Shown here: one piece after another, positions 3,080 through 31,323 of the stretch | Layout of the letters: every line of letters starts with the position of its first letter | How positions within the stretch are numbered: the stretch's first letter is position 1 | Virus record (IMG/VR): IMGVR_UViG_3300010371_000083 | Location: 1 to 33,223 of that record | Direction: 5' to 3' (one strand) | Source of the DNA: a virus | DNA length: 33,223 nt | Made by a program: the position numbers and the translations under genes | Notes under the pieces: generated by a model | Told to the model about the DNA's origin: nothing | Databases searched by the model: none | Seen by the model: only the letters and a program-made list of their open reading frames with translations

Positions 3080-4920
3080 CGTCGGTCCTCCTGAAGCAAA
3101 AGCTGAATGAGCGGGTCAAGCTGAAGCTGCGCGGCGCCCGGGCCGGCCCCGTCGTAACCGATGCCCGTGGCGGGACGAAAGAAGCGCTCGCCAGCGGCGC
3201 CTAGGTTGTGGCCGATGGTCCGCGATACGCCCTGTGCGATACCTGCGCCGCCGGGCATGGAAAGCTGAAGCGCAAGGATGTCCTCGGCGTTGCGAGCTCC
3301 AAGCCGGTCGAGCTGGCCACGGTATAGCGGCGACTGCGCGGCAAGCTGGTCGAGCGTGATGCCGGTGTTAGCGGCAGCCGACCCACCCTTGCCGTACTGG
3401 GCCAACTGCCCCCGCGCTGCCTTGTCATCACGCGGGAACATCCCTTCGGCGTCGCGGATGGCGCCTTCGCCACCGTACAGAGCGTTACGGGCATCGTCGA
3501 GCCTGGTTGCTTCTTCTCCGTAGCGGTCGAGTGCACCGCCGATGTTCCCAGGGCCTTCCCTTGGGTCCATCTCGCGTACGGCGCTACGCATTGCACCCTG
3601 AGCCATTCGCGCGGGGCGATTCTCGGCTGTCCCGGGCATGCCGCCTTGGGCCTCGGCGTTGAGGGATTTCTGGAGCCCGCGGAGCTGCCCGAACGTCACG
3701 CCTTCTGGATCCGCGTTCTCTGCCTGGCGCTGCGAAATGATCTTCCTTGCGGCATCTCGACGCAGCCGTCTACCCTCCGATGCGTACGCCCCTGCCTCTG
3801 CGTGGGCGGCGTCGCGGGCGGCCCCGGGCGGCAATGACTCGGCGTGGTTCCTTGCCATTGCCGCCATCTGTTCGACGGTCTCGGCCTCAGATACAAGATC
3901 TGGCGCTACTGGCCCCTGGGCGCGTGGCTGTCTCGGAGTCAGGGCGGCCTTGTAGTGCCCGAGCCTGCTGTCGAGAGCATCGTCGATGGGAATGCCAGCC
4001 GGGTTGTTGCTGTTCTCTGCGCGCAGGGCGTCTATGCGCGCCGTGACCGGACGTTCTGAAACACGAGTCTCGGGTCCGATGAACGATTCAAGTTCGCCCT
4101 CGGCGGCATCCAGTCCGGCACGGTTTGCAGCGTCGCGCGCGGTCAGGTCGCCAACGATCTGCCCCCGCGCATCCTCGGCCATGCGCATCGTCCCGGGGTC
4201 GCCGTCTGGTAGGTCGCGGTATGCCGGCTCGTCGAACATGCCGCCACCGGCAGGGCGGGTCATGCGCAGTTCTGGAGCCATCGGCTCCGAGCGTCCGATG
4301 AGAGGCGGGCGTTCGTAAATCGGCCCGCGCGGGGCATCTGGGTTGTCAGACGTCACGCGCTCAATGGCGTTCGCCGCGCGCCCGGCTTGCGACTTGGCCA
4401 CGTTTCGCTTGCCCCGCGGCGCACCGACGGCACCTAGCGCACCGCCCATCAAGGCAGCGGTGACAATGTCCTTCGGCTTCGCGTCCGGCTCGGACAGGGC
4501 AGGCGACGCCCCTCCAGCCGCGCCACCGATGATGCCCGACGTACGCCCGCCAGCGCCGAGCGCCCGGGCTGCACTGGACGCGCCCATGCCGACAAGGCCG
4601 CCGAGGGCGAAGCGGGCGAAGTCCTCCGCCTCGGCCTTGTCGTCGGCGGGAGCTGCCCCGGGAGTAGACGTCCCGGCCAGCGCACGACGCAACTCGGGCA
4701 GTGCGACGACGTCAGGATCGGGGCCGCCGGAGGGCGGTGGCCTCTTTGGGCGCCCCGTCGAGATGACGTCCGAAGGGCTCGGGTCGGGCTGGGACAGCTC
4801 GTCACCTCGGCGCATGCTGCCCGACGGCGCAGGCTTCGAGCCCCTCAGCGCCTCGGCGATCTCGTCTTCAGTGAACCCTTCATCGAGGAGGTTGCCGATC
4901 TGCTTGTCGGTCACGTCCAT
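3076..4920 (-). CDS. putative ejection (internal virion) protein with glycine-zipper segments, 614 aa
   Basis: The start at 4920 overlaps the previous stop (TGATG). The N-terminus has a short helical motif (GNLLDEGFTEDEIAEALRG). Residues about 101-168 contain two Gly/Ala-rich hydrophobic stretches (FALGGLVGMGASSAARALG, later TAALMGGALGAVG) resembling glycine zippers that insert into membranes. Residues about 230-500 are long, polar and helical, rich in Ala, Arg and Glu. P22 ejection proteins gp7, gp20 and gp16 lie in the same genomic place, after the tail hub gene, and are likewise helical. No lytic transglycosylase motif is visible. The role, forming a conduit for DNA across the envelope, is inferred from position and composition. 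Confidence 0.65.
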   Translation of the reverse strand: MDVTDKQIGNLLDEGFTEDEIAEALRGSKPAPSGSMRRGDELSQPDPSPSDVISTGRPKRPPPSGGPDPDVVALPELRRALAGTSTPGAAPADDKAEAEDFARFALGGLVGMGASSAARALGAGGRTSGIIGGAAGGASPALSEPDAKPKDIVTAALMGGALGAVGAPRGKRNVAKSQAGRAANAIERVTSDNPDAPRGPIYERPPLIGRSEPMAPELRMTRPAGGGMFDEPAYRDLPDGDPGTMRMAEDARGQIVGDLTARDAANRAGLDAAEGELESFIGPETRVSERPVTARIDALRAENSNNPAGIPIDDALDSRLGHYKAALTPRQPRAQGPVAPDLVSEAETVEQMAAMARNHAESLPPGAARDAAHAEAGAYASEGRRLRRDAARKIISQRQAENADPEGVTFGQLRGLQKSLNAEAQGGMPGTAENRPARMAQGAMRSAVREMDPREGPGNIGGALDRYGEEATRLDDARNALYGGEGAIRDAEGMFPRDDKAARGQLAQYGKGGSAAANTGITLDQLAAQSPLYRGQLDRLGARNAEDILALQLSMPGGAGIAQGVSRTIGHNLGAAGERFFRPATGIGYDGAGPGAAQLQLDPLIQLLLQEDRR

Positions 4921-6347
4921 CAGCGACCGAGCCTCTCCCGAATGCGGGCGATGCGCTGCTCGCGCGTCTCGCCCACGGGCGCGCCGCCCGCGCCCTCGGC
5001 GTCGTCGACGAAGAACTCCTTGCGCTTCCGCGTCAGGTGGTCGCCGATCTTGAGCTTCGAGTACGAGCTGCCGTCGCCGAACACCTCGTCGTACGCCTTG
5101 CGGGCGCCCTGGCGGTTCGTCTCGTGGTTCTGGAGCACGACGTCAACGCCCTGCATGAGCTTGGCGAACACGTCCGGGTCGAGGTCGCCGGTCGCGCCCT
5201 TGCTGACCCAGTTCGTGACGTCGCCCCACGCGCCGCCCATGTGCCCCTGGAGCCGGTTGATATCGGCGTCGGTCAAGACGCCCTTCTGACCGGCCAGGGA
5301 GCGCGACAGGACGTCAGAAAGAGAGCGCTGGACGACGCTCACGTCCTTGTTCTTGAGCAGGCCGCGGAGCCTGGTGTCCTCGTTGCGGTCGGTCGCGATG
5401 TTCCAGTTCTTCTGGAAGTCCTTCAGCCCGGACTCGGCCGTCTGCAAGTCCTTCCGGTCGATGCCGTCGGTTCCGGCCGTCCGCTGCTTGTCAGCGCTCG
5501 GCTTGCTGTTCGCGACGCGCTGCTTTTCGATACCGAACTGACCGACCGTCTGGTCGTGCGCGCGGTTCTCGCCGTACTTGTCGGCCAGGGCCTCGCTGGA
5601 CAGGAATTCCTTCATTGCGTCGCGCGGGGCGATAGTCCCCGACTTGACGCCCGCCTGGAGCTGCGAAAAGCGCTCGGCGCGACGCTGGGCGATGCTGCGC
5701 AGATACGGGTCTCCCGACTGCATGGCCTGGCCAAGCTCGCCCGTGAGCGACTCGCCCACCTTGTCGAAGTCGGCTGCGGCCTGGCGGTCGGCAGAGTGCC
5801 GCAGTTCGTCCGTTGAGGTCTCGACGCCGCCGATACGGACGCGGCCAGTGACGGGAGGCTTGCCAGCGTTCGCGATTGCGCTGTCCTGCGCGCCGAGGTT
5901 GGCCGCGGTGTCCGCTTCGGACGTCTCCGGCTTGAGTTCAGGAGGCGCGCCAGGATTCAGGTCTGGCAGCTGCTCAAAGTCGCGGCCGCGCTTCACGGTG
6001 CGCGTCGACGGGTCCACCTCGGAATAGTCGGCGGCGTGCTGCTTGGCCGCGACCATGTTGCCAGACGCGACGTCGGCGCGGATCGTGTCGTCGGCCTGTC
6101 GCTGCCGTTTGGCGTTGTCGACTTCCAGCTGCGCGTCGTCGCTGCGCTGCTGGCGCATCTCTCGCGCGTCCCTGGTGTCGGCGTCCTGCTGGCGGATGTT
6201 CTGATCGCCCGCGATGCGCTCGGCCTCCAGCTCCATTTTCTGCTTGCGGGCGCGCTCGGCCTGGATGCTGTCGCCGATCTCGGACATGGCCTTCGACAGC
6301 TGATCGGTCCAGCCCGGCGCGCGGAGCATGTCAAAGTTGATGTTCAT
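4920..6347 (-). CDS. putative ejection protein, coiled coil, 475 aa
   Basis: ATG at 6347 overlaps the stop of the 662-aa gene (ATGA). Residues about 15-90 form a strongly charged helix (QAERARKQKMELEAERIAGD and following) that should be a coiled coil. The middle is polar with many Asp, Lys and Gln residues, and the end (TREQRIARIRERLGR) is again helical. There is no membrane segment and no enzyme motif. It belongs to the block of helical proteins between the tail hub and the tail fibre genes, where podoviruses encode proteins ejected with DNA. I cannot match it to a named P22 or T7 protein. Confidence 0.65.
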   Translation of the reverse strand: MNINFDMLRAPGWTDQLSKAMSEIGDSIQAERARKQKMELEAERIAGDQNIRQQDADTRDAREMRQQRSDDAQLEVDNAKRQRQADDTIRADVASGNMVAAKQHAADYSEVDPSTRTVKRGRDFEQLPDLNPGAPPELKPETSEADTAANLGAQDSAIANAGKPPVTGRVRIGGVETSTDELRHSADRQAAADFDKVGESLTGELGQAMQSGDPYLRSIAQRRAERFSQLQAGVKSGTIAPRDAMKEFLSSEALADKYGENRAHDQTVGQFGIEKQRVANSKPSADKQRTAGTDGIDRKDLQTAESGLKDFQKNWNIATDRNEDTRLRGLLKNKDVSVVQRSLSDVLSRSLAGQKGVLTDADINRLQGHMGGAWGDVTNWVSKGATGDLDPDVFAKLMQGVDVVLQNHETNRQGARKAYDEVFGDGSSYSKLKIGDHLTRKRKEFFVDDAEGAGGAPVGETREQRIARIRERLGR

Positions 6348-9516: not shown

Positions 9517-10932
9517 TCACATGTCCAAGATCTGGAAATCCTCATCGAAGCTGGCGAAACGGAATGCGACGCTGTCGACCAGGATTCGCCACTGCCGCTG
9601 TCGGTATGTGCCGAGACTGCGCAGAGAGACGACCGGGTCGACCATCGTCGGGTCGCCGATATCGATGCGAAACGGCTCGCAAAATGGCCCGAGGTCGTCA
9701 CGGTACGAGAGTAGCAAGTACCCGGCGTCCCCATCAGCCACTACACCCCGATGGAACCGCACCCGGACGCCGTGGCACTTCTTGGAGCGGGACGAGTTGT
9801 GGTCGACGAACGTGCTGGTGGCCTGCGCCGCGATGGGCTGACCCAGGTCGGTGTAGGCCGCCCCGTCCAGCATGGCGATCTGGCCGGTCGCGAGGCCCAC
9901 CAAGGTCAGCTTCTTCTCGGGCCAGTAACACGACGCGGTAATCGGCATCTTCCCGAGCTGGCCGGCGTCCGCGTCCCATCCACGCCACTCGGACCACTGC
10001 TTCAGGTCCGTGTCGTAGACGAACGACCGCCCGTCAGTTGGCAGGGTCAGGATGCCCAGGTTGTAGTTCCCGAGCTTGTAGCGCATGCCCCAGGCGTCGG
10101 CGACGTTCGTGCCGGCGTCTTCGAGCTGCTGGCCGATGAAGGGCGTCGAGACCACGTCGAAGCCGCGCCCGTTCGAGTAGAGGACACGGTTCTTCGCGTC
10201 CAGGCCCATGAATTGCTCGTCCATGCCGATGTAGCTGTGCGCCGGCCCCCAGCCGACGTCGATCGTGCGCGCCGGACTGAAGACGACCGACGGATCGGGC
10301 GAGAGCATCGTGATCGTTTCGGTCCCGAGCGCCACGAGCTCGTTCGAACAGAGGTAGAGCCCGACGCAGGGGTCAGGCTTCGTCTCGGCCTCGGCGAAGT
10401 TCAGCCCGGTCGGCCAGGTTTCGTACGCGCCGATGTCCGACCAGTAGATGATCCCGCTCGGGTCGTTCGCGTTGCCCGCGAGCCGCTGCGCGATGGCCTG
10501 GACGTGGGTCATGTTCGGTGGGCTGCCACCGAGGCGTGAAGACAGGCCCGTCCCAAGCCACTGCTGCGGCTTGCCGCCTCCGGCGATGACAACCCGGTCG
10601 CGCAGCGCGGTAATAACCGGGCGGCCAGCGCCATCAAGTCTCGTCGACGTCGTCGTGTCTGATAGGGCCGAGACGTTGCCGGCCGAGTTGACCGCCCAGA
10701 TGTACCGATCGGCGGTGACGTAGATTACGTACGTCGTCCAGATGCCGATCCCGACCACCTCGGACGTATTCGGGATGACCGACGGAAACGACGACCAGGC
10801 CGAGATACCAGGACGAAGCCGCAGCGCGCCGGCCGCATCGGTTAGCAGGTTCGTCTGAGCCGGCATCCCGCCCGCCAGTTCATCGACCGACGGGGACTCT
10901 CCGCCCGAGAACTGGATCCGCTCAGTGGCCAT
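9517..10932 (-). CDS. tail hub / packaged-DNA stabilisation protein, P22 gp10-like, 471 aa
   Basis: Length is almost that of P22 gp10 (472 aa). The N-terminus has a form often seen in this family and related podovirus hub proteins: a short leader, then PAQTNLLTDAAGALRLRPGI. The body is a chain of beta blades with aromatic turns (GIIYWSDIGAYETWP, FVYDTDLKQWSEWRGW, RQWRILVDSVAF), fitting a beta-propeller-like hub. In P22, gp10 binds the gp4 ring and carries the tailspikes and tail needle. The start at 10932 has AGGAGG eight bases upstream. Assignment to gp10 rests on length, pattern and on the nearby gp4-like gene. Confidence 0.7.
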   Translation of the reverse strand: MATERIQFSGGESPSVDELAGGMPAQTNLLTDAAGALRLRPGISAWSSFPSVIPNTSEVVGIGIWTTYVIYVTADRYIWAVNSAGNVSALSDTTTSTRLDGAGRPVITALRDRVVIAGGGKPQQWLGTGLSSRLGGSPPNMTHVQAIAQRLAGNANDPSGIIYWSDIGAYETWPTGLNFAEAETKPDPCVGLYLCSNELVALGTETITMLSPDPSVVFSPARTIDVGWGPAHSYIGMDEQFMGLDAKNRVLYSNGRGFDVVSTPFIGQQLEDAGTNVADAWGMRYKLGNYNLGILTLPTDGRSFVYDTDLKQWSEWRGWDADAGQLGKMPITASCYWPEKKLTLVGLATGQIAMLDGAAYTDLGQPIAAQATSTFVDHNSSRSKKCHGVRVRFHRGVVADGDAGYLLLSYRDDLGPFCEPFRIDIGDPTMVDPVVSLRSLGTYRQRQWRILVDSVAFRFASFDEDFQILDM

Positions 10933-11002
10933 GCGCTGGCCTCCTGTTCAGCGGATATTCGTTCAGTATTGTAGTTTTCTCGGACCCAGGCAGGCTTGTG
11001 GC
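10933..11002. promoter_or_regulatory. divergent intergenic region between tail hub and lipoprotein genes
   Basis: This 70-bp gap separates two divergently read genes. It contains a relatively AT-rich patch (GATATTCGTTCAGTATTGTAG at 10954-10974 in part), notable in this GC-rich genome. A -10-like TATTGT at 10967-10972 lies about 30 bases before the lipoprotein GTG, but no -35 box is found at a good distance. A plus-strand promoter would be expected here because the flanking transcription is leftward. Confidence 0.35.
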
Positions 11003-11458
11003 GTGGGAAAACCGCTCGCGGCCGTGTTGCTCCTGGCGTCGTGTGGCTACCAGGTCGACGAGACGAAGGTAGTGCCTGCGCCGGCGCGAGCCGATGAGGC
11101 TACGGCGGCCGTGGCGCAGGCCTTCGCCATCAGCTACCCGCCGGCCGTCTTCTGGTACGATCCTGACGACTGCGGGGCTGGGGCGATCCATGACCCAGAA
11201 GGCGAGTGCGTCTTCGGCTTCCGTTTCGATCGAATCGTGGTCCTGTCCACGCAGCGAGGCGTGCCGCTGCACGAGACCGCTCTCGCTCACGAACTCGGCC
11301 ACCTGGCCTCCCTGGAGCGCGACGGAACATCCGATCACGACCACGTCAGCCGTTTTTACCTGGACGCGTGGCAGACTCCGGAGCCAGGCAAGATCCCAGA
11401 CGACCAACACGGACTGGTCGGCGAACAGAACCGCGCGCTCACGGCGCGCGGCCTGTAA
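11003..11458 (+). CDS. lipoprotein with HELGH zinc-metallopeptidase motif, 151 aa (moron-like)
   Basis: This is the only plus-strand gene inside the leftward virion operon. From GTG 11003 the product begins with a short lipoprotein signal (GKPLAAVLLLASC, lipobox LAS-C14). The frame is open upstream, but only the 11003 start puts the signal at the N-terminus; AGG lies about eight bases before it. H96-E97-L-G-H100 is a zincin signature, and H112 or H114 (DHDH) may be the third ligand. C57 and C69 could form a disulfide. It would sit lipid-anchored in the envelope, with Gly after the lipid Cys. Such isolated reverse genes often act in the host (exclusion or lysogenic conversion), but the role here is unknown. 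Its stop is one base from the tailspike stop. Confidence 0.75.
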   Translation: MGKPLAAVLLLASCGYQVDETKVVPAPARADEATAAVAQAFAISYPPAVFWYDPDDCGAGAIHDPEGECVFGFRFDRIVVLSTQRGVPLHETALAHELGHLASLERDGTSDHDHVSRFYLDAWQTPEPGKIPDDQHGLVGEQNRALTARGL

Positions 11459-11459
11459 G

Positions 11460-12986
11460 TCAGTTCGCCGTCGCTGCACGTCCAACCTCGTATGTCTTGT
11501 CGTCGATCGGCGAGTACAACAACAGCAGGTTGACGCGGTTGCCGTTGGCCGGCGCGACCGCGGCAGACAGGACGTACTTCGTATCGAACGTCCAGGTCAC
11601 GGCTCCTGCGGTCGAGCGCGAGCAGATGAGCGTGAACGGTCGACCCGCGCCGATCGCCGTGATGTTGTTGACGGTGACGACAGCCGCGGCGGTCACCGTT
11701 ACCCGGATCTCGTCAGCCTGCGACGGCAGCGGCGTGAAGTTTCCGTCCGCAGCGAACGTGTAGGCGACGGGGGCGCCCGTACGCTGGTCCGTGACGCCGA
11801 GGGTTCCCCAGTTACATGCGGCGTGGAAGACGGCGCCAGCCGTGGCGCTCGTGCGCAGACCAACAGATACCCCGGTATTGATGACGCCATATGCATAGAG
11901 CGACGCCGTCGACTGGATATCGATCCCGGCCGTGCCAGAGCTTACCGTGGTGCCGATGATCTTCGCCTTGCTCGTCGAGCCAATAGCGATTGAGATCGTT
12001 GACGTGGTGTACGAGCCGCCGATGATCGTCACGTCGAAGGCAGCGCCTGTTAGGTCGAGTCCGGTCGCGACGTTAGACGGGATGGTCACGTTCGACAGGT
12101 ACACCGAGCCGGCACCACCACCGCTGATCCCCTTTGTGTGGCTCGATATCTCGACGTTCTCGAACACGACCTCTGTCGACGTCCCAAGCGCAATTGCGCT
12201 ACCGGTCGACGTTCCGCCAGAACCGGTGATTGCCAGGTTCCTCCAAGCGTGACTCGTCCCGCTCGTTGCGGTGAATGCGTTAGCCGCAAGGTTCGCGTTG
12301 GAGATGATCGACGTCGTAAGGCTCTGACCGACGAACGAAATCGTGCCTGACGGTACCGTGATGGGAGATGTGATCTTGTAGCCACCGGGAGGGAACAGCA
12401 CCGTTCCGCCTCCAAGTGATCGGACGAAGTTGACCGTGTTCTGAATGGGCACCGTGTCGTCAGCAACGCCATTGCCAACCGCGCCGAACGTCTTCACCGA
12501 AACGCCGAAATCGCTGATGGCGTCCTTCAGATACCGCCCCGTCGCGTTGCCGTTGGCAAGAAACTTCCCGTCCACGCCTCCGACGCTCGAAGCAAACGAC
12601 GACAGGATCCGGCTCAGGTAGGTCCGCTCTCCCGCCACGTACTGGCCCGTATCGGGGTCGATCCCTGTGTACCCGGAGTTAATAACCTCGACGAGTCCAG
12701 CGCTCACCGTCGGTTCGGTCGAGAACTGGTCGACCGTGATGCCGTCTTGGTCCTCGATGCGCACCGTGCACGGCTCGTCGACGAAGATGCCGATCTTTCC
12801 GGCAGCGTCGAGCAGGTACCCACCGCTGACCAACGTGTGCGCGGCGCTCTTGTCCTTGTCCTGGTACCCGGTGACCCTCGTGTTCGCCGTCCCGGGACGC
12901 GTGAGGAAGATTCTGCCGCCCGCGTTGACCGTGCCGTCGGTCCTGCGGGAGCCGGAGACTGCGAGACTGTGGATTACGGTCGCCAT
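11460..12986 (-). CDS. tailspike with pectate-lyase-like beta-helix, 508 aa
   Basis: The start is ATG 12986 (MATVIHSLAV), with GAGGA five bases upstream; an upstream in-frame ATG lies in the preceding gene. Residues 1-85 look like a head-binding domain (GTVNAGGRIFLTRPGTAN, GIFVDEPCTVRIED). Residues 160-210 show the pectate-lyase superfamily entry VKTFGAVGNGVADDTVPIQN, then GGTVLFPPGGYKI. About 210-430 is a run of short Gly/Ser/Thr-rich strands typical of a right-handed beta-helix, and the last 80 residues form a separate beta domain. Such proteins bind and often cut host polysaccharide. In P22 the spike attaches to the gp4-gp10 hub, whose genes flank this one. Confidence 0.85.
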   Translation of the reverse strand: MATVIHSLAVSGSRRTDGTVNAGGRIFLTRPGTANTRVTGYQDKDKSAAHTLVSGGYLLDAAGKIGIFVDEPCTVRIEDQDGITVDQFSTEPTVSAGLVEVINSGYTGIDPDTGQYVAGERTYLSRILSSFASSVGGVDGKFLANGNATGRYLKDAISDFGVSVKTFGAVGNGVADDTVPIQNTVNFVRSLGGGTVLFPPGGYKITSPITVPSGTISFVGQSLTTSIISNANLAANAFTATSGTSHAWRNLAITGSGGTSTGSAIALGTSTEVVFENVEISSHTKGISGGGAGSVYLSNVTIPSNVATGLDLTGAAFDVTIIGGSYTTSTISIAIGSTSKAKIIGTTVSSGTAGIDIQSTASLYAYGVINTGVSVGLRTSATAGAVFHAACNWGTLGVTDQRTGAPVAYTFAADGNFTPLPSQADEIRVTVTAAAVVTVNNITAIGAGRPFTLICSRSTAGAVTWTFDTKYVLSAAVAPANGNRVNLLLLYSPIDDKTYEVGRAATAN

Positions 12987-12993
12987 GATGTCC

Positions 12994-13668
12994 TCAAAGC
13001 GCGGGAAGCTCGAAACACAAATCACCGCCCTCTTGTTCACGCCCCATCGCGCGCAGAATGGCGCGCTCGGCCTGGTCGTCGAGGTACTTCGCCGTGGTCA
13101 CGGGCAGCGACGCCGCAAGAGCCATCTTGTGGGCGATCGACCACGCCAGGGCATCCGTCCATCGGCCGCGAACGTCGGGGGCCGTGCCGCTCGCCGAGTC
13201 CGCGACGAGCCGCTGTCGCTGGAAGCTGACCGTGTACGTCTGCGTCGGGACGGGCCAGAAGTACAGCGTCACCGTCGCCAGCTTCTCGACGTAGCAGCTG
13301 GTCGGCGTGCCAGTGCTGAGCTTGTTCGAGATGGCCTGATATTCGCGGAAGTAGATGTGGCTGACGGGCGTCTCGCTGTCCTGACCGGACAGCTTCAGCA
13401 TCATCGGAAACGCCACTTCGATCGTGTCGGCGTCCATGGCGAGCGACGACTTCTGACCAGAGGCGGGAGGCGACAGCGTCATCTCCTCGCGCTCCAGCTG
13501 GTCGAGACACGCGCCACGGCCGCTGAGCGACTTGAGCGTCACGTCGAACATGTCGCGCGCGTGGCGCAGCTCGACCGACGATGGCTCGCGGCCGAGCGGA
13601 AGGAGTCCGGCAAGCTGCAAGCCCTGACGGATGAGCATGTCGACGGACGGCGCAAAGGTTGCGCTCAT
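12994..13668 (-). CDS. head-to-tail adaptor, P22 gp4-like, 224 aa
   Basis: The start is ATG 13668, overlapping the previous stop (ATGA); the much longer open frame upstream lies over the 522-aa gene. The sequence follows the layout of P22 gp4-type adaptors: an N-terminal helical part (LRHARDMFDVTLKSLSGRGA), a strand pair ending in the SREYQ-like FREYQAISNK, then GTPTSCYVEK, and YFWPVPTQTYTVSFQRQRLV (matching the usual LYFWPVPD region). A final helix contains AWSIAHKMALAASLPV. Such proteins form a ring under the portal and seal packaged DNA. It is longer than P22 gp4 (166 aa). The product lies between the portal module and the gp10-like gene. Confidence 0.75.
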   Translation of the reverse strand: MSATFAPSVDMLIRQGLQLAGLLPLGREPSSVELRHARDMFDVTLKSLSGRGACLDQLEREEMTLSPPASGQKSSLAMDADTIEVAFPMMLKLSGQDSETPVSHIYFREYQAISNKLSTGTPTSCYVEKLATVTLYFWPVPTQTYTVSFQRQRLVADSASGTAPDVRGRWTDALAWSIAHKMALAASLPVTTAKYLDDQAERAILRAMGREQEGGDLCFELPAL

Positions 13669-28682: not shown

Positions 28683-28876
28683 TGCCCGCGGCCAAGCGTA
28701 AGCCGGGTCGCGGCGGCGCCCGCCCTGGCGCTGGCCGCCCGGTATCGACGGGGGCCGGCGCGAACCGCATCGTGTTCCGCGTGAGCAATGCCCAGCGCGA
28801 CGAGCTGGCGGCCGAGGCGACTCGCCTTGGCCTGTCCAGTGCGGCCCTGGCGGCGAAGCGGCGCGTGTTCTCATGA
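28682..28876 (+). CDS. ribbon-helix-helix-like DNA-binding protein, 64 aa
   Basis: ATG 28682, with AGGTGG upstream, is chosen over a GTG three codons earlier. The basic N-terminus with RGGARPGAGRP is typical of small phage DNA-binding proteins. It is followed by NRIVFRVSNAQRDELAAEAT and RLGLSSAALAAKRRVF, which reads as a strand and two helices of the MetJ/Arc fold. The stop overlaps the recombinase start (ATGA). It may regulate the recombinase or assist its binding. Confidence 0.6.
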   Translation: MPAAKRKPGRGGARPGAGRPVSTGAGANRIVFRVSNAQRDELAAEATRLGLSSAALAAKRRVFS

Positions 28877-29391
28877 CCACGGCCGTGGCTCTCCTACGCG
28901 TCTCGACCGACAAGCAACACCTCGGCCTGGACGCCCAACGCGCCGCCATCTCGGCATACTGCGCCACGCACGGCATCGAGGTCATCTCCTGGCACACCGA
29001 GATCGTCTCAGGTGGGGCAGCCTTCGAGGACCGTTACGGCCTACAAGCAGCGCTCGCCGACGTCTCTGCCACCAAGGCCACCCACCTGCTCGTAGCCAAG
29101 CGCGACAGGTTCGCACGTGACCCTCTCGTTGCGCTGCTGACAGAACGCGAGCTGTCACGGTCGGGCTGTACGGTACTGTGTGCTGACGGCAACAACGAAA
29201 CCGACCCCGCCAGCGAGCTTGTGCGTCACATTCTTGACGGCGTGGCACGATTCGAGCGGCGCATGATCAGTATCCGCACCAAGGCTGCGCTCAAGGCCAA
29301 GAGCGACGCAGGGGCCAAGCTGGGCCGTCCGTTCGGGGCGAAGGACAAGCACCCACGCAAGCGGTCTGCTGGTATAGGGGGCTTGCAGTAG
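28873..29391 (+). CDS. serine recombinase (resolvase/invertase family), short form, 172 aa
   Basis: The catalytic domain is complete: ALLRVSTDKQ with R9 and nucleophile S11, then LGLDAQRAAI, and KRDRFARD supplying D78, R79 and R82, equal to D67-R68-xx-R71 of gamma-delta resolvase. The long E helix (ELVRHILDGVARFERRMISI) follows. After LGRPFGAKDKHP, where resolvases normally continue into a helix-turn-helix, the protein ends after about 12 residues. It may therefore need a partner or bind weakly. Such enzymes cut both strands through a 5' phosphoserine link and serve as integrase, resolvase or invertase. No attachment or res site was identified. Start ATG 28873 overlaps the upstream stop. Confidence 0.85.
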   Translation: MTTAVALLRVSTDKQHLGLDAQRAAISAYCATHGIEVISWHTEIVSGGAAFEDRYGLQAALADVSATKATHLLVAKRDRFARDPLVALLTERELSRSGCTVLCADGNNETDPASELVRHILDGVARFERRMISIRTKAALKAKSDAGAKLGRPFGAKDKHPRKRSAGIGGLQ

Positions 29392-29415
29392 CCCATAAGC
29401 CGGTACCGTTGAGGG

Positions 29416-29679
29416 GTGAACGAGCAGCTACGCCACGTAGCCGTCATGTGCATCGCTGCCCTGGTGGTGGCGATGGGCGGTGCCGTAGCGCTCATTGCGT
29501 CGTACCTGCACAGCTCGGGAGAACAGGTATACATGGTGGCGACAGGAATCGTAGCCGTGGGCGGCGCGATCATCGCCGGTGAGTTCGGCCTGGCTCGCTC
29601 GGCCTCTACGCCAACGGCGGCCGTCAAGGTCGACCACCCCGTAACGACCATCAACCAGGGAGCAGATGCCGCGAAATGA
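29416..29679 (+). CDS. holin-like membrane protein, 87 aa
   Basis: GTG 29416 has GAGGGG just upstream. There are two hydrophobic helices at about residues 8-30 (VAVMCIAALVVAMGGAVALIASYL) and 37-58 (VYMVATGIVAVGGAIIAGEFG), then a polar tail (VKVDHPVTTINQGADAA). Short length, two membrane passes and place ahead of an endolysin gene fit a class II-like holin. The homology is unproven; other small membrane proteins look alike. The stop overlaps the next start. Confidence 0.65.
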   Translation: MNEQLRHVAVMCIAALVVAMGGAVALIASYLHSSGEQVYMVATGIVAVGGAIIAGEFGLARSASTPTAAVKVDHPVTTINQGADAAK

Positions 29680-29944
29680 AGACAGCTCGCCGGGTCATCG
29701 ACGCAGTACAGACGGGGTCGCGCCGATTGCTGGACCTGACGACGAGACGGGCATCCGCATCGGCCTCGGCATCCAATCCCTGGGAGCGAACCTCGCGGAA
29801 CATTTCCGCGCTCGACGCCACCTTACGCGGGCTCAACGAGCGGCTGAGAGTGCACGCCTCGCCGCGGTCCTGGACGGAATCGCAGGAGAGATCGACACCC
29901 TGAGGATCGGCGTGCGGGCGATGGCGAGGCAGGACCTTGGGTGA
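29666..29944 (+). CDS. small helical protein of the lysis cassette, 92 aa
   Basis: ATG 29666 lies inside the end of the holin-like gene. The protein has a polar start and a helical body (GIRIGLGIQSLGANLAEHFR, RAQRAAESARLAAVLDGIAG). There is no membrane segment. A competing frame at 29676 reads as basic, repetitive sequence and is rejected. Its role in lysis is unknown; antiholin or assembly helper functions are only suggested by position. Confidence 0.6.
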   Translation: MPRNEDSSPGHRRSTDGVAPIAGPDDETGIRIGLGIQSLGANLAEHFRARRHLTRAQRAAESARLAAVLDGIAGEIDTLRIGVRAMARQDLG

Positions 29945-30284
29945 CACCGAGCCGGAATACGTGCTTGAGTACGACGACGCGCACGAGCTGCCGTTCGCCG
30001 AGGAGCAGACGCCGACGAAGCTGGAGGAGCCTGGCGCATGTTGGCGGTGCTGGCGCATCATGCCGGTCCAGATCGTTGCGCCCGCTCCCGGCTCGACACA
30101 CGAGGCGATGCGGTTCCACACGTGCATCGCGAGCGCGGGCGGCGGATGGGCATGGTGCGCGGTGACGATGGTTCTGCGGCTGGGTACGTTCGAGCTGTAC
30201 GTGGGGCCGAACCGGCGCACGGCGATCTTGCCGCCGCCGAGCGGAGAGCGGCGCCGATTCCCGCCGCGGAAGGACGACGTATGA
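29937..30284 (+). CDS. hypothetical protein with Cys/His motif, 115 aa
   Basis: The only in-frame start near the previous stop is TTG 29937; the next ATG would cut the first third. The N-terminus is acidic (TEPEYVLEYDDAHELPFAEE), then CWRCWRIMPVQIVA, a histidine and cysteine (HTC) and VLRLGTFELYVGPNRRTAIL. CxxC plus HxC may bind a metal. The stop overlaps the endolysin start (ATGA). The function is unknown. Confidence 0.55.
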   Translation: MGDTEPEYVLEYDDAHELPFAEEQTPTKLEEPGACWRCWRIMPVQIVAPAPGSTHEAMRFHTCIASAGGGWAWCAVTMVLRLGTFELYVGPNRRTAILPPPSGERRRFPPRKDDV

Positions 30285-30739
30285 AGTCACGCTTCTTCTC
30301 GATCGACGAGTTCCGTTGCCACAGCGGCGAGCCGTACCCCGCGGCGTGGGCCGATGACCGCTTGCAGGCCCTCTGCAACGTCCTCGACACCATCCGCGAC
30401 GCCTGGGAGGGCCCGATCACCGTCGTCTGCGGATACCGGACGGCGGCCTACAACGCCGCCCTCGCCGAGGCCTCGGCGAAGCGCAACGGCGGCGTCTCTG
30501 GCGTGGCCCAGAACAGCCAGCACATCCAGGGGCGAGCCGCCGATGTTCGCCCGGCCGCTCCCACCGTGGAGCGGGTGCGCGAGCTCCACGCGCTCGTGCG
30601 CCGGCTGTTCGACGAGGGCAAGCTCCCGCAGCTCGGGGGGCTCGGGCTCTACCCGGGTTTCGTACACGTTGACGTCCGAGCAAAACAGAACGGTCACCTT
30701 GCTACCTGGGGCGGCATCGGAATGGGCGAGTCGCAGTGA
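30281..30739 (+). CDS. M15 peptidase endolysin (D-Ala-D-Ala carboxypeptidase-like), 152 aa
   Basis: ATG 30281 overlaps the previous stop (ATGA). The product follows the M15_3-type peptidase layout: FSIDEFRCHSGEPYP (the F...F.C.....P start), GPITVVCGYRTAAYNAAL (P..V.SGYR..N), SQHIQGRAADVRP with H and D zinc ligands, and GFVHVDVR with the last His. The full length (about 150 aa) contains only the catalytic domain, without a cell-wall-binding part or a signal peptide, so it depends on the holin to reach the murein. It cleaves peptide cross-links of peptidoglycan. Confidence 0.85.
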   Translation: MKSRFFSIDEFRCHSGEPYPAAWADDRLQALCNVLDTIRDAWEGPITVVCGYRTAAYNAALAEASAKRNGGVSGVAQNSQHIQGRAADVRPAAPTVERVRELHALVRRLFDEGKLPQLGGLGLYPGFVHVDVRAKQNGHLATWGGIGMGESQ

Positions 30740-31323
30740 CGCCGGGACAGAAGCGCGCGGGGCTGGCGCTGGCGCCGGTCATCCTGTTCGGCGCGTTCCT
30801 CGTCGGCAGGGTCACCGCGAGCCCGCCTCCGAGCCACGACGAGCGCAAGGTTGTCACCGACTCGAAGGCGACCTCCACCACAGTCGCCAAGGTCGACGAG
30901 GCCAAGCACGAGACCGCCACCCGCGACACGGACACCACGGTTCGCACGGTAACGCGCTGGCTGCCCGCTGTCGCTGCCTCCGTCGGGTGTCCAGCAGTCC
31001 CCGCCCACGTCGAGCAGGAGACGGTCAGGGAGACCCACGCGGCGGCCACCCGGACGGCCGACACGAAGCGGGCGCAGCAGGTCCAACAGCACGCCGAGAC
31101 CGAGGCGCATCAGACCGTGGTGGAGTTGCACGCCGTCGAGGCGCGCCCGAACTGGAACATCGCAGTCCTGGCAGGCGCTCAGCTCGGCGGGCGCAGTCTA
31201 CTTATCCCGGCCCCATTCGTCGGCGGCGTCCACATCCAGCGGCGCGTCCTGGGGCCGGTCAGCATCGGCCTGTGGGGGACGACCGGGATGGCCGGTGGGG
31301 TCAGCGTCGGCCTGTCCTGGTAG
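30736..31323 (+). CDS. spanin-like membrane protein with periplasmic helix and C-terminal beta region, 195 aa
   Basis: GTG 30736 overlaps the endolysin stop (GTGA). Residues about 8-28 (AGLALAPVILFGAFLVGRV) are a membrane anchor. Residues about 35-135 form a long Thr/Lys/Glu/Ala-rich, partly coiled-coil stretch (THAAATRTADTKRAQQVQQH). The last 60 residues (WNIAVLAGAQLGGRSLLIPA, SIGLWGTTGMAGGVSVGLSW) alternate like an outer-membrane beta hairpin and end in an aromatic residue, as beta-barrel proteins do. This fits a one-gene spanin that links inner and outer membrane in Gram-negative lysis. No lipobox is seen. The 3' end overlaps an antisense gene. Confidence 0.6.
   Translation: MTPGQKRAGLALAPVILFGAFLVGRVTASPPPSHDERKVVTDSKATSTTVAKVDEAKHETATRDTDTTVRTVTRWLPAVAASVGCPAVPAHVEQETVRETHAAATRTADTKRAQQVQQHAETEAHQTVVELHAVEARPNWNIAVLAGAQLGGRSLLIPAPFVGGVHIQRRVLGPVSIGLWGTTGMAGGVSVGLSW

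Follow-up and report, generated by a model that had tools for sequence, protein, structure and literature searches.

Gene and neighbours at the locus

The window, i.e. the whole stretch of DNA that was analysed, is the linear IMG/VR record IMGVR_UViG_3300010371_000083 of 33,223 bases. At positions 11003–11458 it carries, on the plus strand, a GTG-initiated gene for a 151-residue protein that is predicted to be lipid-anchored and zincin-like. The features listed for it in the initial annotation are all present: the plus-strand reading frame, a lipobox (LASC), an HELGH motif and a DHDH further downstream. The predicted lipoprotein signal peptide (11003–11044, plus strand), identified from the sequence, from comparison with the family and from the published lipobox consensus (PMC6139136), has a charged and hydrophobic N-terminus (10-residue hydropathy of 2.65) and ends in L11-A12-S13-C14, with Gly rather than Asp after Cys14. 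A conserved pair of cysteines, Cys57 and Cys69 (11171–11209), probably forms a disulfide. HELGH at residues 96–100 (11288–11302) is the predicted zinc-binding and catalytic motif, supplying H96, E97 and H100, and is followed by S-DHDH at 110–114 (DHDH at 111–114), in which H114 (11342–11344) is a candidate third zinc ligand. No other gene of the window combines a lipobox with HExxH.

The gene lies alone on the plus strand, filling the gap between the start of one minus-strand gene (10932) and the stop of another (11460). The second of these, at 11460–13040, is a tailspike-like gene with a pectate-lyase-like domain in profile matches, as had been proposed. The first, at 9517–10932, had been called a tail hub gene; it encodes instead a head closure protein Hc3 (P22 gp10-like), as indicated by phrog_578 (E 1e-25) and by its relatives. 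Three related phage records have the spike and Hc3 genes side by side: in G003 the GTG of Hc3 comes almost immediately after the spike stop (3820–3822), G012 has the same junction, and in G001 the ATG of Hc3 directly follows the spike stop. The zincin gene of the window is therefore an extra gene inserted between two otherwise adjacent genes, in agreement with the moron-like insertion that the initial annotation had suggested. At the end of the same structural operon is an SGNH/GDSL hydrolase gene (1098–2240).

The flank 5′ of the gene (10933–11002) is indeed an AT-richer pocket, with 54–56% GC in the 70 bases upstream of 11003 versus roughly 60–70% around them, and contains a plausible ribosome-binding site, AGGCAGG (10988–10994), 8 nt 5′ of the GTG. 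Since the gene runs against the structural operon, it needs a promoter of its own or a distant one. The former had been expected, but no sigma-70-like match was found in 10700–11700; terminator-like sites were few.

Coding evidence and family

HExxH occurs in 3 of the window's 184 six-frame stop-to-stop stretches of at least 100 residues, and the motif alone is thus weak evidence. The GTG start and the missing promoter match could speak for a chance or decayed reading frame, but comparison with a 65% identical copy in L004 gives dN 0.32 and dS 1.19 (dN/dS about 0.27), indicating purifying selection. With the window and L004 sequences left out of the profile, the window protein scores 67 bits, compared with 6.8 bits for the best of 999 shuffled sequences. 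When the motif used for selection is removed, the N-terminal part of the window protein still ranks first (E 6e-5), as does the C-terminal part (E 0.006). Together with a confident predicted fold, these results make a chance or decayed frame hardly credible; judged by its conservation, 11003–11458 is a real gene.

Relatives with a conserved HELxH, which the initial annotation had made a check on its reading, were found in IMG/VR. Apart from L004 (record G003), proteins with about 31–35% identity to the window protein occur in L001 (record G001) and L002 (record G002). A DNA pattern for TALAHELxH retrieved L014, L077, L025, L028, L029, L056, L064, L065 and L074, and L116 and L136 came from a second DNA pattern. 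Most members were also recovered, independently, with a profile led by L029, down to the L004 record. By motif and profile searches the family comprises about a dozen divergent phage relatives. An N-terminal anchor, the Cys pair and ALAHELxH with a His downstream of it are common to all of them. The anchor is of lipobox type except in L029 and L116, which have a membrane helix, and none of the lipobox members has Asp at residue +2. These shared features mark out a previously undescribed family of zinc-protease-like proteins with a membrane anchor, encoded by uncultured phages, and the earlier proposal of an envelope-anchored zincin-like protein is borne out to the extent that the anchors and HExxH are conserved family-wide.

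One further record, L022, matches by motif alone and was dropped. Searches of INPHARED and PLSDB (tblastn) with selected family members gave no accepted homologue. We rejected the INPHARED hits in Mycobacterium phage EnzoK and Rhizobium phage RHph_X3_15, one lying mostly outside an annotated gene and the other belonging to a larger, differently placed protein; the other members used as queries had no hit among INPHARED phages or plasmids. Two scans of genome contigs yielded no confirmed relatives, and because confirmation was against the divergent window sequence only, distant cellular relatives could be missed.

Predicted fold and zinc site

The window protein has no accepted match in Pfam, PHROGs, NCBIfam or PADLOC profiles or in PDB sequence searches. 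The best profile rows for the family in these four libraries are sub-threshold matches to SprT-like, Reprolysin or similar profiles. The highest family score against Pfam PF10263 (SprT-like) is 13.7 bits, for L002, against a cut-off of 25.6 bits, and the window protein does not match it at all; because of this we do not claim membership of the Pfam SprT-like family. AlphaFold models were obtained for the window protein, using 13 family sequences (pLDDT 85, pTM 0.80), and for L029 (pLDDT 92, pTM 0.78). Foldseek returned nothing at E < 0.001 from the PDB for either model. In VIA-align, the top rows for both are abylysin, jannalysin and SPRTN 6mdw/6mdx (Z 5.8–6.7), abylysin 4jiu aligning with Z 6.7 (80 residues, 2.2 Å) and Z 6.8 (83 residues, 2.9 Å); BepA is also listed for the window model (Z 5.8). 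As all Z values are below 8, they denote similarity and not proof. The models thus point to a zincin-type fold, with the minigluzincin/Spartan/SprT group ranked first. Of the fold check that had been proposed, the structural half put zincins on top with Z below 8, and the match in profile libraries did not appear.

H96, E97 and H100 of H-E-x-x-H are identical in all family members. H112 and H114 had both been put forward as the third zinc ligand. In alignments A3 and A4, and also in G011, the His at position 114 is retained, whereas H112 is not conserved, so that by conservation H114 is the most likely third ligand. The preceding Asp shifts in L025 and G011, and since its spacing to H114 varies, D111 is less likely as a ligand; an aspzincin assignment was considered and set aside on this ground. 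A metzincin (matrixin) identity was likewise rejected for the window protein, which reads HELGHLASLERDG, as neither HExxHxxGxxH nor a Met-turn is found. The protein also fits neither form of spanin, a linker-type small lipoprotein that pairs with an i-spanin or a lipobox protein with a C-terminal transmembrane segment, being a predicted globular α/β zincin that lacks such a segment.

Genomic context of the relatives

The lysis genes of the window lie far from the zincin gene. An M15 endolysin is encoded at 30281–30739 on the plus strand (PF08291 E 1e-11, phrog_894 E 1.5e-21), and its stop is overlapped (GTGA) by a gene for a spanin-like membrane protein (30736–31323, plus strand), so designated from its position and an N-terminal hydrophobic segment. 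The spanin-like protein has no family match in profile searches, and has homologues in G003 and G011. In the window it follows the endolysin directly, with no lipoprotein zinc peptidase in between and no matrixin. In G001, the zincin homologue itself sits directly behind the M15 endolysin, with a start that falls within the stop codon of the endolysin (GTGA). In G003 (L010:1433–1954) and G011 (L170:4421–4942), the gene whose start overlaps the endolysin stop in the same way encodes a matrixin-type lipoprotein zinc peptidase, with HEFGHVLGL.HDRSAIM and Peptidase_M10 scores of 28.5 and 29.2 bits (cut-off 24). This matrixin is unrelated in sequence to the window zincin and has no relative in INPHARED; the spanin-like gene is located further downstream of it. 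Each of the two phages has the zincin as well, at another site: at about 12402–12875 in G011, which was found by an endolysin-based search and not via its zincin, and at 33690–34145 in G003. The GTGA junction at the endolysin 3′ end is common to G011, G003, G001 and the window, and a lipoprotein zinc peptidase occupies this slot in three of these four related phages, drawn from two unrelated zincin families.

The zincin gene of G003 overlaps the stop of a serine recombinase gene (GTGA), which it directly follows. The window encodes a 75% identical recombinase at 28873–29391 on the plus strand. The recombinase and lysis genes of the window (28873–31323) are oriented opposite to the structural genes (1098–25220); the matched lysis and structural genes are co-oriented in G003, indicating that the module is inverted between the two.

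In other members the placement is varied. The zincin is near an XhlA/holin-like gene in L029 (hemolysin phrog_1193 E 5e-5) and near a holin-like gene in L144 (phrog_689 E 0.004, a weak profile match). In L145 a ClpP-like serine protease lipoprotein (5385–6167) directly follows the zincin gene, and in L064 a matrixin-like lipoprotein (1168–1641; Peptidase_M10 25.7 bits) comes about 280 bp after it. No recognisable lysis-cassette placement is seen for the window, L004, L002, L025, L028 or L065. The lysis cassette as a general home of the family was thus rejected, as it holds for G001, and perhaps for L029 and L144, but not for all. Several smaller observations were made in the same records. Two more lipoprotein genes are encoded between a holin-like gene (weak profile match) and the zincin at L151:4117–4905; a small Cys-rich (zinc-ribbon-like) gene directly precedes the zincin in L144 (4609–4938), L145 (4528–4917) and L136; tail-tube-like genes are present in L144 and L136 as well; and L002 has a GDSL-like lipoprotein two genes away from its zincin.

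Proposed function

The reading that we prefer, although it stands about evenly poised between right and wrong, is that of a lipid-anchored, SprT/minigluzincin-like periplasmic zinc peptidase that acts late and aids lysis. The protein would be exported, lipidated and anchored on the periplasmic side, probably at the outer membrane. In Escherichia coli, a lipoprotein residue +2 other than Asp favours the outer membrane, and as no lipobox member has Asp there, this location is favoured for the zincin. The N-terminal membrane helix of two members fits work in the periplasm rather than at the surface. Late in infection the zincin may cleave envelope proteins and so weaken the envelope, helping the endolysin and spanin to release virions; in the window, its gene would have left the lysis cassette, or never sat in it, and been inserted between two structural genes. 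Zinc binding, proteolysis, substrate, outer-membrane location, late expression and the part in lysis are what we infer from motif, anchor, predicted fold and gene context. Counting against lysis are the distance of the window gene from the lysis cassette and its unlocated promoter, the spanin-like gene already present in the window and its relatives, and the fact that it is in related phages, and not in the window, that a peptidase gene occupies the slot behind the endolysin.

The same features can be read in terms of superinfection exclusion or receptor trimming, in which an outer-membrane lipoprotein of an infected or lysogenic cell would act on a phage receptor, by cleaving or by blocking it. 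A lone gene next to a tailspike gene and running against its neighbours is what such a moron would look like, the zincin gene is in opposite orientation in L002 too, and superinfection exclusion is a known function of phage lipoproteins such as T5 Llp and Ltp (PMC9586334, PMC3952083). However, homologues are encoded behind the endolysin (G001) or with structural and holin-like genes around them, two members have a membrane helix as anchor, no lysogeny gene or module is established in the window to bear out the proposed expression from a prophage, and profile searches do not connect the sequence with known exclusion proteins. The gene context in relatives suggests lysis more than exclusion or receptor trimming, and we regard the latter as possible but unlikely. 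Were it the true role, this would be proteolytic superinfection exclusion, for which no description was found.

Location between the spike and Hc3 genes might also suggest a virion-associated peptidase for genome entry, encoded beside tail genes. This is very improbable given the lipobox or membrane anchor in every member, the orientation of the window gene opposite to the structural genes, and the lack of tail linkage in G001, G003 and G011. Less remote, though still quite unlikely, is a host-takeover peptidase whose target in the periplasm is a regulator, a chaperone or a secretion factor, altering stress signalling or blocking competitors, with no part in lysis. It is in keeping with the periplasmic quality-control peptidases, such as BepA, in the fold search, with the variable gene positions (recombinase operon, nucleotide metabolism, early region) and with VgrG2b, a periplasmic metallopeptidase effector that perturbs cell morphology (PMC6899460), but leaves unexplained the endolysin-slot arrangement and the exchange with a matrixin lipoprotein.

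A broader form of the lysis reading, which is tentative and on balance doubtful, is that SprT-like and matrixin lipoproteins are interchangeable behind the endolysin, and that lipid-anchored zinc proteases are a regular enzymatic step of lysis in a group of uncultured phages, cutting envelope proteins or outer-membrane tethers alongside spanins or replacing part of their action. Rupture of the outer membrane by phages is thought to be non-enzymatic, through spanins, and in one survey 91 of 677 phage genomes have no recognisable spanin (PMC6139136). In the open-access literature we found no report of a lysis-cassette lipoprotein metalloprotease. If the broader reading is true, the recurrent endolysin-coupled lipoprotein protease is a candidate for an enzymatic way of rupturing the envelope, and such proteases would form a new class of envelope-weakening proteins.

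Comparison with known systems

Wss1 and Spartan have been described as minigluzincin-like, with SprT-like, WLM and minigluzincin proteins in one structural group (PMC4559962). The window protein as modelled has in common with this group (Spartan, Wss1, abylysin) the HExxH helix and a compact core as well as, by analogy with SprT, a downstream His in third-ligand position, and the group supplies the top rows in both structure comparisons. It differs from Spartan and Wss1, which are proteases of DNA repair, in its Cys pair and in being predicted to be exported and lipid-anchored, and its family falls below the Pfam SprT-like cut-off. Like the window protein, the matrixin of G003 and G011 is a predicted zinc peptidase and lipoprotein, and its gene takes the place occupied by the zincin gene in G001, but it has HExxHxxGxxH and a Peptidase_M10 match.

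Spanins (Rz/Rz1, T1 gp11; PMC6139136) are comparable in that a lipoprotein is encoded after the endolysin, as in G001, with a role in the envelope; the zincin is predicted to be globular and not a small linker or fusion protein, and a spanin-like protein is encoded separately in the window. The exclusion proteins Llp, Cor and Ltp are also small phage lipoproteins with moron-like placement, but are not known as peptidases and have no detectable sequence relation to the zincin. VgrG2b is an example of a metallopeptidase that can disturb the envelope from within the periplasm (PMC6899460).

By analogy, the nearest functional precedent is the phage-derived metzincin Mtz of Listeria with the lipoprotein Tim, which raise phage-mediated lysis and virion release about 5-fold, while phage-cured cells are not lysed (PMC8235301). 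Here too a phage-linked metallopeptidase, a lipoprotein and the envelope come together, with higher sensitivity to phage lysis. Mtz is a secreted metzincin of a Gram-positive host with the lipoprotein as its partner, whereas in the window the predicted peptidase is itself the lipoprotein and is not a metzincin.
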